DNA from: Planctomycetota bacterium
Lineage (GTDB): Bacteria > Planctomycetota > JAFGQW01
Direction: 5' to 3'
DNA: 42,344 bases
Assembly: GCA_016935485.1 (NCBI GenBank)
Contig: JAFGQW010000161.1
Location: 1-42,344, forward strand
Notes under the pieces: model-generated
Told to the model about the DNA's origin: nothing
Database searches by the model: none
What the model saw: only the letters and a program-made list of their open reading frames with translations
In this document: piece by piece, positions 35,491 through 39,515 of the stretch
Layout of the letters: each line of letters starts with the position of its first letter
How positions within the stretch are numbered: position 1 is the stretch's first letter
Translations under genes and position numbers: made by a program

Positions 35491-36654
35491 ATGATGCCCG
35501 TTGCCGATCGCCCAGCCCGCGCGACGCGCCGCGCCACCCGCCGGCGAGGTGGCGTGATCCTGCCCCTGCCGTTCGTGGTCCTGGTCGCCATCGCCCTTGC
35601 CGGGGGCTGCCGCACCGGGTGGGACCACCGCAGCACCCTCCATCAGCTCTATATACCCGACGAAAGCGGCCAGCTCGTTGCCGCTTCCACCGTCAAGGAA
35701 CTGTCGTCTGGCCAGTGCCTGTTCCGCGCCGTCCTCGGACCGTTCGGGCTCTATGATCCCGTGCCCGAGGAGGTTCCGGTCCCCGACCCCGCGGGGCTAG
35801 GACGCACGACGATCCTCGAGCTCTCGGGCCTGCTCGCGGGCAACCCGGCGCTCACGGCGTTCGCGTTGCCCGAGTTCTCGGAGCTGGCGCTCAAGGCCCC
35901 GTTCGAGCTGACCCGTGCCCAGGCCGTCAAGGCGCTCGGCACGGCCCTCGACCGCCAGATCCCGCCGCTTGCACCGCTCCGGGGCGCGACCGAAGAAAGT
36001 GCCGAGAGAATCGGGGCCGCCGTCCGGGAGCTCATCGGTCGGGACGCTGCGGAGGCGACGGGCAGTGAGGCGCCCGGGACGCTTGGAGAGGAGCGCCGGC
36101 GCGAGCTCGTGCACGGGCTCGCCACGACCGACTACCGCTCGATCGAGAACACCCGCCCTGCCCTCAAGGCCCTCGGCCTGGTCGCTCGGTTCGCAGCGGG
36201 AGAGCCCGAGTCCATGCGCGGCGTCGCCGAGGAAGGCATTTATCGGCTGAGCCGGACGCTCTGTCGTCTGACGCTGCTTGCGCTGCTCGCAACCGAGCAG
36301 AGCACGGTCGTGCGCGGCGCGGCGGCCGAAGCGATCGGCGCGGCCCGAGAGGACTGGGCCGAGCGGGCGCTGCTCGATCTCCTGCCGGCAGAGAGCGACC
36401 CCGGCGTGATCCGCAAGGTCTACCGCTCGCTTGCGGAATACCGCACGTCCGCGGTCGCGCGAGCGCTGATCGCGGCGTGGAAAGCGCAGCCGAACTCGCT
36501 CAACGCGACGCTGGCCCGGCGTGCCCTGCTCGAGTTCACCCGGGAGGACCTCGGAAGCGCGCTCGATGCGTGGGAGAATCGGCTCGCCGAGCTGGGCTAC
36601 CTCGCGGCACCCCCACCCGCACCCCCGCGGGCGCCGCCCGTCCGCGCCACCTGA
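35491..36654 (+). CDS. Lipoprotein with HEAT-like helical repeats
   Basis: This 387-residue protein has an Arg-rich n-region, hydrophobic segment and lipobox (LPFVVLVAIALAGGC). The mature region opens with about 60 beta/coil residues (YIPDESGQLVAASTVKELSSG; FRAVLGPFGLYDPVPEEVP) and continues as helices. HEAT-like units include VVRGAAAEAIGAAREDWAERALLDLL and VIRKVYRSLAEYRTSAVARALIAAW. The ATG at 35491 (MMPVADRP) was chosen to give a normal lipoprotein signal; the next ATG, three bases on, is equally possible. The C-terminus APPPAPPRAPPVRAT falls in a 71-bp segment that is duplicated downstream, so the true end may have been altered by that duplication. Function unknown; probably an envelope scaffold. 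Confidence 0.75.
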   Translation: MMPVADRPARATRRATRRRGGVILPLPFVVLVAIALAGGCRTGWDHRSTLHQLYIPDESGQLVAASTVKELSSGQCLFRAVLGPFGLYDPVPEEVPVPDPAGLGRTTILELSGLLAGNPALTAFALPEFSELALKAPFELTRAQAVKALGTALDRQIPPLAPLRGATEESAERIGAAVRELIGRDAAEATGSEAPGTLGEERRRELVHGLATTDYRSIENTRPALKALGLVARFAAGEPESMRGVAEEGIYRLSRTLCRLTLLALLATEQSTVVRGAAAEAIGAAREDWAERALLDLLPAESDPGVIRKVYRSLAEYRTSAVARALIAAWKAQPNSLNATLARRALLEFTREDLGSALDAWENRLAELGYLAAPPPAPPRAPPVRAT

Positions 36655-36796
36655 GCGCGCGCCCTTCGCGCGCGACACCCGCACGCCTATCTGAAAAATG
36701 CCCCAGGGGCGTTTTTTTCAGATAGCACCCGCACCCCCGCGGGCGCCGCCCGTCCGCGCCACCTGAGCGCGCGCCCTTCGCGCGCGACACCCGCAC
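36614..36796. repeat. 71-bp direct duplication flanking a 41-bp palindromic terminator
   Basis: Bases 36614-36684 and 36726-36796 are identical by inspection (period 112). Each copy carries GCGCGCG-CCCTT-CGCGCGC, a 7-bp hairpin. The first copy includes the last codons and stop of the upstream lipoprotein gene. The 41 bases between are the terminator palindrome. Confidence 0.9.
36687..36725. terminator. Bidirectional intrinsic terminator
   Basis: CTATCTGAAAAA and TTTTTTTCAGATAG flank GCCC-CAG-GGGC. The GC stem with an A-tract on one side and a T-tract on the other works on either strand, fitting its place between convergent genes. Confidence 0.8.
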
Positions 36797-36804
36797 CGGC
36801 TCCG

Positions 36805-38388
36805 TCAGAGAGCGCCGTACCGGTAGTAGACCTGGAGCAGCAGCACACTGGCGGCCGTGGAACGAACGGCATCCGGCCCGATCCCCCCGACGGCCGGCAG
36901 CCAGCTGAACCCGCCGTCCTCCCTCTGCCGCGACACCAGGCTCCGCACCAGGGTGCCGTTCCAGCGTGCCCAGGCCGCCTCATCGCCGCCGCGCACCAGA
37001 GCCTGGGCGGCGTGAAGCCAGGCCAGCAAGTCCCCGGTCCTCAAGTCCGCCGGATCCTGCTCGAGCACCGCTCTCACCGCCGCGGCGCCCGCATCAGGCG
37101 GCTCCTTTCCGGCCAGCTCGTCCAGCAGCAGCTGCCCGGCATGAAATGCCAGCGCCGCGGAGCCGCCCCGGTCGAATCGCCGGCGGTTCTCTTCATCGCC
37201 GAACCATCCCTGGCACTCGCTCAGGCGCTCCGGATCCACCGCGTAGCCCAGACTCCGGGCGAGAATCAGCGTGAAACCGGCCTGTGTCACCGCAGCCGGA
37301 TCGCCGAAACGGTCCGGACGGATCCCGGCGATGGCCTTGTCCACCGCCTCTTCAGGCACGCGCCCCACCCCCATGAGCACCGCCTCCAGCACCGCCTGCG
37401 TGGCCAGGGCGTGGTTCAGGAGCCGCGCGCCGTTCGCCTCGCCAGCGCCGCCGAAGAGGCCGTCGGCCTGCTGGCGCTTGATCAGGTACTCGAGCCCTCT
37501 CTCGACCGCCTCACGCTCCGCGCCCGCGACCCCTTGCCCGAGAAGGGCGAGCAGCGCGAGTCCCGTCGTTCCGACGCGCATGCCGTCTGCGGTCTCCGGA
37601 GCGCCCGCCGCGAACGAGCCGTCCACCTGCTGTCGGGCGGCGAGCCAGCGCAGCCCGCGGCGAACCGCGCTCTCCGTCTCGAGACCGCCGCCGCGGCGGA
37701 ACACCAGCGCCAGACGGCGCTGCTCGTCGGTGCGGGCCTGCCGGACCTGCGTCCGGAAGAGCTCGTGCGCCTGCGCGTCTCCGGAGGCGAGCCAGCCGCC
37801 GGACAGATCCCGGCTCGCGGGCAGCTCGTCCTCCGGACGGATCCGGATCCGCCCGGGCCGAAGCTCGTCGGCAACCTCGGGAATGCGCTCCTCGAGGCCG
37901 TCCTCGCGGAGCCCCGTCTCGTCCTCCCTGACGACGCGGTTCCAGCGGTCCTCCGCCGTGGGCTCCGGAGGCCGCTCGCGGAAGAGCCCGAACGCAAGCA
38001 CCGCGATCAGCACGGCCTGCGCGGCCGCGAACAGGACCAGGAAGCGAAAACGGGCCGAAGTGCGGAATCGCCCCCGGAGGTAGCCGACCGTCGATACGAC
38101 CTCGACGGCAAGCCGGGTCCAGACGGACTCCCGCTCGGTCCGCGGCGCGAACACCTCCCGGATCAGCGCCTCGCGCCGGCGAAAGTAGGCGGGAGAAAGC
38201 GGCGGGACCGGCGCCACCCGAGCCGCTTTCAGAACGCGCTCCACCTCCGCGTACTCCCGCCGCAGCGCCTCCGACGCCGCGAGCCTCTCGGCCATGGCAC
38301 GGCGCTCCGCCTCCGTCCCTTCGCCGAGCGCATACATCTCCAGAAGCGAACGGGTGCGGGCCTCGTCGCCTCCCGGATTACGAGTCAT
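36805..38388 (-). CDS. Membrane anti-sigma-like protein with prenyltransferase-like toroid domain
   Basis: This is a 527-residue three-part protein. The N-terminus (about 1-110) is anti-sigma-like: TRSLLEMYALGEGTEAERRAM followed by LRREYAEVERVLKAA, without a zinc motif. A membrane helix is FLVLFAAAQAVLIAVLAFGLF. After a charged linker, the C-terminal about 330 residues contain repeats of the prenyltransferase / squalene-cyclase type alpha-alpha toroid: GLRWLAARQQVDGSFAAG, GLEYLIKRQQADGLFGG and SLVSRQREDGGFSWLP, each with a Q-x-x-D/E-G-x-F turn, ending STAASVLLLQVYYRYG. The catalytic DxDD of cyclases is not seen, so it is more likely a ligand- or protein-binding toroid. The ATG overlaps the stop of the ECF sigma gene (ATGA). 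Inference: an extracytoplasmic ligand controls sigma release. Confidence 0.82.
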   Translation of the reverse strand: MTRNPGGDEARTRSLLEMYALGEGTEAERRAMAERLAASEALRREYAEVERVLKAARVAPVPPLSPAYFRRREALIREVFAPRTERESVWTRLAVEVVSTVGYLRGRFRTSARFRFLVLFAAAQAVLIAVLAFGLFRERPPEPTAEDRWNRVVREDETGLREDGLEERIPEVADELRPGRIRIRPEDELPASRDLSGGWLASGDAQAHELFRTQVRQARTDEQRRLALVFRRGGGLETESAVRRGLRWLAARQQVDGSFAAGAPETADGMRVGTTGLALLALLGQGVAGAEREAVERGLEYLIKRQQADGLFGGAGEANGARLLNHALATQAVLEAVLMGVGRVPEEAVDKAIAGIRPDRFGDPAAVTQAGFTLILARSLGYAVDPERLSECQGWFGDEENRRRFDRGGSAALAFHAGQLLLDELAGKEPPDAGAAAVRAVLEQDPADLRTGDLLAWLHAAQALVRGGDEAAWARWNGTLVRSLVSRQREDGGFSWLPAVGGIGPDAVRSTAASVLLLQVYYRYGAL

Positions 38389-38981
38389 GGACGGAGTCCC
38401 TCCTTTTCCAGCCAGGCCCGGAGCTTGCGCATCGACGTGTGCATCCTCGACTTCACGGTGCCCACCGGGATCTCCAGGATCGCGCCGATGTCGGCATACT
38501 TCAGCTCGTCGTACACGGCCATCTCGAACACGCGTTGCTCGCCCGCGTTCAGGCACTCCAGGGCCTCGCGGATCTTCGCCGCGAGCTCCCGGCCGACCTG
38601 ACGGGCCTCCGGGGCCGCCCCCCCCGCCTGCAGGAGCTCGCCCAGACTCGTGCCCTCGTCCGCCGCTGCGCTACCCACGGCGTGTTCGAGCGACAGCGTT
38701 TTTCGCGGGCGGTTCGCATGCACCCGGATATGGTCGATCCAGTGGTTCTTGACCACGCGGTAAAGAAACGTCGTGAAACGCGCTTGCGGGCGGTAGGTCT
38801 GCCGGGCCTGGTAAATCTTGTGCCACACCTCCAGGGTCAGGTCCTCGGCCAGTCCGGCGTCCTCCGACCGGCGGTAGAAGAAGGCAAAGACCCGCGCCTC
38901 GTGACGCTCCATGAGGCAGCGGAACGCCTCTTCCTCGCCCTGCTTGAGTCTCTCCATGAGCGCCTCGTCCGAGGACTCCAT
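38385..38981 (-). CDS. ECF-type RNA polymerase sigma factor
   Basis: This 198-residue ECF sigma has region 2 (EAFRCLMERHEARVFAFFYR ... AGLAEDLTLEVWHKIYQARQ ... FTTFLYRVVKNHWIDHIRVH) and region 4 (LNAGEQRVFEMAVYDELKYA with the helix-turn-helix IGAILEIPVGTVKSRMHTSM). The linker has no sigma region 3. The ATG at 38981 (MESSDEALMERL) is the normal start; the track adds nine residues from a GTG. It follows tsaE by 33 bases and overlaps the anti-sigma-like gene by four bases (ATGA), so the pair is translationally coupled. Target promoters are not evident in the window. Confidence 0.94.
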   Translation of the reverse strand: MESSDEALMERLKQGEEEAFRCLMERHEARVFAFFYRRSEDAGLAEDLTLEVWHKIYQARQTYRPQARFTTFLYRVVKNHWIDHIRVHANRPRKTLSLEHAVGSAAADEGTSLGELLQAGGAAPEARQVGRELAAKIREALECLNAGEQRVFEMAVYDELKYADIGAILEIPVGTVKSRMHTSMRKLRAWLEKEGLRP

Positions 38982-39014: not shown

Positions 39015-39515
39015 TCAGTCTTCTCCGGCGATTTCGCGGATCAGCGGGCCGAAACGCCCGGCGTGGCCGTACAACCGGACCAGGCGGTCTCGATCCGAGA
39101 GGATGCGCATCCGAACGCACAATATCGGGGGCGGAAGCAGGCGTTTCAATCCCCCGCCCCACTCCACGGCGACGACGCCGTCCTCCCCGAGGAGCGCCTC
39201 GTCCGCCCATTCGAGGAGCTCCGCCAGGTCCCGGACCCGGTAGGCATCGAGGTGGTAGAGCGGCACGCGGCCCGGATACACGCCGCACAGCGCGAACGTC
39301 TGGCTGGTCACCCGGCAGGCCGGGTCCACGCCGAGACCCGCGGCCAGGCCCTGGACGAAGCAGGTCTTGCCGGCGCCGAGCGGGCCCGTGAGCAGCAGCC
39401 GGTCGCCGGCGCGAAGACCCCCGGCGACCCGGAAGGCCAGGGCTCGGGTCCCCTCGGCGCCCGCGGTGCGGACCGCCGCCACCGGCCAGCTCCAGGAGCT
39501 CCGGGAAGCGGTCAA
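39015..39515 (-). CDS. tsaE: tRNA threonylcarbamoyladenosine biosynthesis ATPase TsaE
   Basis: This 166-residue P-loop ATPase is needed with TsaB/TsaD for the t6A37 modification of ANN-decoding tRNAs. Walker A GPLGAGKTCFVQGLAAGLG, the switch segment VTSQTFALC (usually SPTF), LYHLDAYRV and VAVEWGG are in family order. The track merges it into a 915-residue frame with a shadow of recD2. The real start is the TTG at 39515, which overlaps the recD2 stop (TTGA) and has GGAGGAGG upstream. The about 20-residue N-terminal lead (TASRSSWSWPVAAVRTAGAEG) is unremarkable. It is in an operon with recD2 upstream and the ECF sigma gene downstream. Confidence 0.92.
   Translation of the reverse strand: MTASRSSWSWPVAAVRTAGAEGTRALAFRVAGGLRAGDRLLLTGPLGAGKTCFVQGLAAGLGVDPACRVTSQTFALCGVYPGRVPLYHLDAYRVRDLAELLEWADEALLGEDGVVAVEWGGGLKRLLPPPILCVRMRILSDRDRLVRLYGHAGRFGPLIREIAGED

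Follow-up and report, generated by a model that had tools for sequence, protein, structure and literature searches.

Many bacterial ECF sigma factors are paired with membrane-bound anti-sigma proteins, and one such candidate pair is encoded on the minus strand of the window, the whole 42,344-nucleotide stretch of planctomycete DNA analysed here. The anti-sigma candidate ends in a domain resembling a squalene cyclase, which raises the question of what such a domain does in a gene-control protein and where it came from. The answer that we consider probable is a sigma/anti-sigma switch in which an envelope signal is read by a periplasmic toroid, with the membrane-plus-toroid half of the protein being of TonB-like origin. 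The features on which this reading draws are as follows.

38385..38981, minus strand: ECF sigma factor, 198 aa, with sigma2 and sigma4 domains (Sigma70_r2, Sigma70_r4_2, TIGR02937)
36805..38388, minus strand: anti-sigma/toroid membrane protein, 527 aa (open reading frame)
38385..38388, minus strand: ATGA overlap of the sigma stop (TGA, 38385-38387) and the anti-sigma start (ATG, 38386-38388)
39015..39512, minus strand: tsaE (Pfam TsaE, E=6e-27), 33 nt upstream of the sigma gene
38152..38367, minus strand: predicted class I anti-sigma domain, residues 8-79, without zinc ligands (AlphaFold helices, alignment, profile score)
37984..38055, minus strand: membrane helix, residues 112-135, N-terminus predicted cytoplasmic (hydropathy, AlphaFold, charges)
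38017..38031, minus strand: F120 and Q124, at the positions of the TonB/TolA-like S-x3-H pair (column alignment)
37777..37980, minus strand: linker, residues 137-204, charged, Pro-containing and of low confidence (pLDDT <50 for 137-201; composition)
36808..37776, minus strand: alpha/alpha toroid, residues 205-527 (Pfam, AlphaFold, Foldseek, profile score)
37612..37659, minus strand: QW motif RGLRWLAARQQVDGSF, residues 244-259 (exact motif match)
37453..37500, minus strand: QW motif RGLEYLIKRQQADGLF, residues 297-312 (exact motif match)

The first-pass annotation of this DNA had described an ECF sigma gene overlapping, by ATGA, a gene for an anti-sigma-like N-terminus, a membrane helix and a prenyltransferase-type toroid in one chain. 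Both open reading frames are present and the overlap is exact. The sigma protein consists of sigma2 and sigma4 domains only, the composition of an ECF factor (Pfam Sigma70_r2, E=4.5e-13; Sigma70_r4_2, E=5.5e-13; TIGR02937, 91 bits, above cut-off), and its nearest relative, at 59% identity, is in a genome of the same family (G001). The same -4 overlap joins sigma and anti-sigma genes at eight other loci (L058, L059, L065, L066, L068, L069, L070 and L072). The 527-aa partner is organized as a class I anti-sigma domain, one membrane helix, a disordered linker and a periplasmic alpha/alpha toroid. Its AlphaFold model has a mean pLDDT of 73; this model and that of a zinc-bearing relative (L099) were built from 8-row alignments.

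Upstream of the sigma gene lies tsaE, itself preceded by recD2, and the order tsaE, ECF sigma, anti-sigma/toroid is kept in distant planctomycete families (L058, L063, L065, L066, L072, L098, L099 and L100). No functional reason for the tsaE neighbourhood is evident. On the other side, in the stretch where the anti-sigma gene and a HEAT-repeat gene converge, two identical 71-bp direct-repeat copies (36614-36684 and 36726-36796) surround a hairpin at 36687-36725 (CTATCTGAAAAA ... TTTTTCAGATAG), with the first copy containing the stop codon of the HEAT-repeat gene. This arrangement is a shared terminator, a recent duplication or an assembly artefact.

Several observations identify the N-terminus. 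The model places helices at residues 8-20, 26-38, 40-58 and 66-79, residues 15-161 match the NCBIfam anti-sigma model NF052375 (E=4e-5, under the model's cut-off), and the segment scores 30.3 bits against a profile of relatives built without the window protein and its sister, compared with a maximum of 9.5 among 1000 shuffled sequences. It also aligns to relatives of the same architecture that carry Hx3Cx2C; their N-terminal segment is a zinc anti-sigma domain of the zf-HC2 type, which passes the cut-off in L060 and L100 and comes close to it in L066 and L058. A motif search of the window protein (P0001) found no Hx3Cx2C zinc ligands, which precede the membrane helix in 14 of 23 ECF-coupled toroids. 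Class I anti-sigma groups mix zinc and non-zinc members (PMC7406223), and the missing ligands are therefore no argument against function. Given this helical domain and the adjoining ECF gene, we assign the N-terminus to the class I anti-sigma domains, as the earlier description had anticipated. The membrane helix of that description is likewise borne out: mean hydropathy reaches 2.56 in the best 19-residue segment (117-135), and flanking charges (six K+R to two D+E on the N-terminal side, five to five on the C-terminal side) are consistent with a cytoplasmic N-terminus.

The C-terminal half belongs to the QW-motif alpha/alpha toroid superfamily. It holds two exact QW motifs, matches Pfam SQHop_cyclase_C at 29.1 bits (cut-off 26.1), and scores 164.6 bits against a toroid profile made from relatives only, where the best of 500 shuffled sequences reached 6.1. 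AlphaFold renders the protein all-helical from about residue 205 to its end. Structure comparison with cyclases and C3d-like folds, which the first-pass annotation had proposed as a check, returned alpha/alpha toroids as the best PDB matches, all with weak E-values: AprG, squalene-hopene cyclase, alpha-2-macroglobulin (A2M), MmpH, MstE and C4d for the window toroid (best E 4.9e-4), and sugar epimerases, GH76, terpene cyclases and squalene cyclases for the L099 model (best E 9.6e-5). In these models the toroid fold is clear and no single family stands out.

The toroid superfamily includes enzymes and thioester proteins, and the signatures of both were sought. The DxDD catalytic acid of squalene-hopene cyclases, already reported as not seen, is indeed absent by motif search of the window protein, and we set the enzyme reading aside on this ground. 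The same search found no CxEQ thioester motif, the entire protein having one Cys, and the complement/A2M thioester reading was set aside as well. That the toroid is a sensor, as first suggested, is the most economical reading of a domain with neither cyclase acid nor thioester. The further suggestion of a hydrophobic ligand is not supported: sugar enzymes, terpene cyclases and alpha-2-macroglobulins all figure among the fold matches.

Two proposals for the toroid can be weighed on these data. One makes it a working enzyme (carbohydrate-active, a terpene cyclase or a prenyltransferase) whose activity is coupled to gene control by the anti-sigma domain. Sugar epimerases, GH76 mannanases, AprG, and squalene-hopene and terpene cyclases do occur among the Foldseek matches, and stand-alone toroids, which lack an anti-sigma domain, keep many conserved aromatic and polar residues. 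However, DxDD is missing, and W, R, Y, Y, R and E of the stand-alone toroids are replaced by Q369, D423, L455, L458, A507 and Q519 in the window protein, so that we regard this proposal as improbable. Still further down we place the idea that the toroid acts as bait or as a protease trap and is akin to the thioester domains of alpha-2-macroglobulin or complement: A2M and C3d/C4d are among the fold matches and TED_complement matches weakly in Pfam, but there is no CxEQ, the protein has a single Cys, and the A2M/complement matches are no better than those to enzymes. We consider this very improbable. Elsewhere in the genome of the window, an open frame of approximately 2000 aa with an internal toroid (L005) looks alpha-2-macroglobulin-like by eye.

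Among 73 columns conserved in stand-alone toroids, the window protein keeps 53 and its sister 40, compared with a median of 51 for the ECF-coupled clade and 66 for an ECF-coupled group from one family (f46). On these columns, and at the Ser and His positions of the membrane helix described below, the window copy is a derived form.

Relatives of the toroid are present in 238 of 294 sampled Planctomycetota genomes. ECF-coupled toroids, for which an upstream sigma gene was required, number 23 distinct proteins from 22 planctomycete genomes and at least 12 families. When the 30 sigma genes closest to that of the window were collected from 392 genomes, 18 had a toroid gene directly downstream (within a 1.5-kb flank) and 11 had tsaE upstream. 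A search with a six-row alignment led to eight named loci in Planctomycetota, Candidatus Brocadiia and Candidatus Uabimicrobium; a scan of all GTDB contigs with the single window protein found nothing. The genome of the window was itself searched family by family. These relatives across the phylum rule out a pair unique to the window and indicate that the coupling of sigma to anti-sigma/toroid is recurrent and old within Planctomycetota.

A toroid tree from a quick search groups 17 ECF-coupled and two other toroids in a clade of 19 (SH-aLRT 96), within which the window protein stands beside that of G001 (SH-aLRT 98). Of the two members not labelled as ECF-coupled, one (L062) begins with a zinc anti-sigma domain; its sister in the tree is the ECF-coupled L100. 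Six ECF-coupled toroids of family f46 fall outside this clade, and the coupling therefore probably arose or moved more than once. In three genomes of the same family (G075, G140 and G055), several zf-HC2 matches lie just ahead of toroid matches within one genome, which suggests a lineage expansion of anti-sigma toroids.

The origin of the membrane-anchored half is suggested by a pattern in its helix. The helices of E. coli TonB (PWPTLLSVCIHGAVVAGLLYTS) and TolA (AIIISAVLHVILFAALIWSS) have Ser-x3-His-x6-Leu-x3-Ser in common, and its Ser and His touch TM1 of ExbB/TolQ (PMC12215075). S-x3-H is found in the helix of 47 of the 66 toroid proteins with a clear membrane helix before the toroid, and any His in 59; among other membrane open reading frames at the same loci, the counts are 1 and 23 of 98. 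None of 19 planctomycete zf-HC2 proteins with a membrane helix and no toroid has the pair, while both toroid-bearing zf-HC2 proteins in that set do, as do 13 of the 18 ECF-coupled toroids downstream of the closest sigma relatives. Fisher tests give 2e-24 for toroids versus membrane open reading frames and 2e-6 for 13/18 versus 0/19, values that the relatedness of the proteins inflates. The S-x3-H pattern is short, and all of these counts come from related, non-independent sequences. The full S-x3-H-x6-L-x3-S pattern occurs in two stand-alone toroids of the window's own genome (L002 and L004), linkers of stand-alone toroids are acidic or proline-rich, and profile searches of the toroid proteins yielded no TonB or TolA matches.

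Gene neighbours point partly in the same direction. One locus (L136, 2637-6226) reads TPR, toroid, MotA/ExbB, ExbD, ExbD by Pfam; another (L138) reads toroid, ExbB, ExbD, ExbD, and a third (L139) TPR, ExbB, ExbD, toroid, again by Pfam. At L043, L096 and L137, ExbD, the only motor gene seen there, lies beside a toroid. The majority of stand-alone toroid genes do not adjoin exbB/exbD, and among the loci examined no toroid with a recognised anti-sigma domain does so. At L137 the two ExbD genes are followed by an ECF sigma gene and another membrane toroid, whose protein has by eye neither an anti-sigma zinc motif nor S-x3-H. ExbD genes are present in 26 of 27 genomes tested, including that of the window, in which motor genes are present. 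The stand-alone toroids beside ExbD (with ExbB also in L136, L138 and L139) apparently constitute an undescribed, toroid-ended class of TonB-like arms. One protein of 1235 aa (L139:2617-6324), encoded directly after TPR, ExbB and ExbD genes, combines PD40 (TolB-like) propeller repeats with the same toroid.

The helix signature and motor-gene neighbours had been missed by the first-pass annotation. They point to membrane helix, linker and toroid as a unit that also exists without an anti-sigma domain and is there TonB/TolA-like, and such an arm seems to have acquired an anti-sigma domain. S-x3-H is a property of the toroid family as a whole and is not found in the window protein itself: its Ser and His positions are F120 and Q124, and those of the sister-genus protein (L058) are Cys and Gln, whereas the alignment's other twelve rows have the His. 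Asn can stand in for this His in E. coli TonB, so the Gln of the window protein leaves room for motor contact.

The main competing explanation is an ordinary membrane anti-sigma factor whose toroid binds a ligand, with no link to an envelope motor and S-x3-H serving as a packing motif of the family. This is quite possible, if short of probable. The lack of both Ser and His in the window protein and its sister fits it, as does the failure to find a recognised anti-sigma toroid beside exbB/exbD. However, S-x3-H goes with the toroid rather than with the anti-sigma domain (0/19 when the toroid is missing), stand-alone toroids do occur in ExbB/ExbD operons, and the His is retained in nearly all ECF-coupled toroids other than those of the window and the sister genus.

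In the switch of TonB-like origin that we favor, cytoplasmic residues 1-110 would tether the ECF sigma factor to the inner membrane in the resting state, as the arrangement of the genes and the established behaviour of anti-sigma factors lead one to expect. An envelope signal would act on the periplasmic toroid and cross the single membrane helix, freeing sigma through a conformational change or proteolysis. The toroid would bind a ligand or partner (wall, saccharide or protein) and carry out no catalysis, and the fusion would have made a motor-linked envelope arm into a sensor. The ligand, sigma binding and motor coupling are predictions from sequence. With Phe and Gln in place of Ser and His, and with 20 of the 73 conserved positions of stand-alone toroids altered, the window copy may simply sense a ligand or protein with no motor involved; coupling would be likelier in its His-bearing relatives. 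A bolder and rather doubtful extension holds that one class of Planctomycetota anti-sigma factors is itself built into proton-driven ExbB/ExbD motors, such that load on the arm, or its engagement, releases sigma as a mechanical, pmf-linked readout of the envelope.

The pair shares features with several known systems. Class I (ASDI) membrane anti-sigma factors of the ChrR, RsiW and RskA type (PMC7406223) likewise have an N-terminal helical domain, an adjoining ECF gene, a membrane helix and an extracytoplasmic part. They differ in that the text of that classification does not mention a squalene/prenyltransferase-type domain, and in the TonB/TolA-type membrane helix of the toroid family. Force transducers of the TonB/TolA kind, and the TonB-like vWA class (PMC12204202), resemble the toroid proteins in S-x3-H helix, disordered linker and globular end domain and, for some stand-alone toroids, in TPR and ExbB/ExbD-pair gene neighbours; here, however, the chain ends in a toroid and starts with an additional anti-sigma domain, and the window copy lacks Ser and His. 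As described in PMC9249621 and PMC12772443, FecI-FecR-FecA signalling also has an ECF sigma and an inner-membrane anti-sigma factor reading the envelope, and involves a TonB-dependent transporter. In that system TonB, the receptor and the anti-sigma factor are distinct proteins, whereas here a single chain unites the TonB-like helix with the anti-sigma domain, and no gene for an outer-membrane receptor was seen beside the pair. Squalene-hopene cyclase and prenyltransferase toroids have the QW motifs, the helical toroid and Pfam SQHop_cyclase_C in common with the window protein, which differs in lacking DxDD and in being a single toroid tethered by a membrane helix to an anti-sigma domain.

In the open-licence literature we found no paper describing the toroid class or its anti-sigma fusion, in searches combining toroid or squalene with anti-sigma, or for TonB-like anti-sigma factors. 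The initial view of an unusual envelope-sensing design holds relative to described anti-sigma factors, and does not hold within Planctomycetota, where the pair recurs.

For most planctomycete ECF sigma factors no input signal is known to us, and one group of them gains here a candidate input module that is conserved across the phylum. If His-bearing members do couple to ExbB/ExbD, they would tie an envelope motor directly to transcription in a single protein chain. Planctomycetota thus appear to have made a part of an envelope machine into a sensor for gene control.
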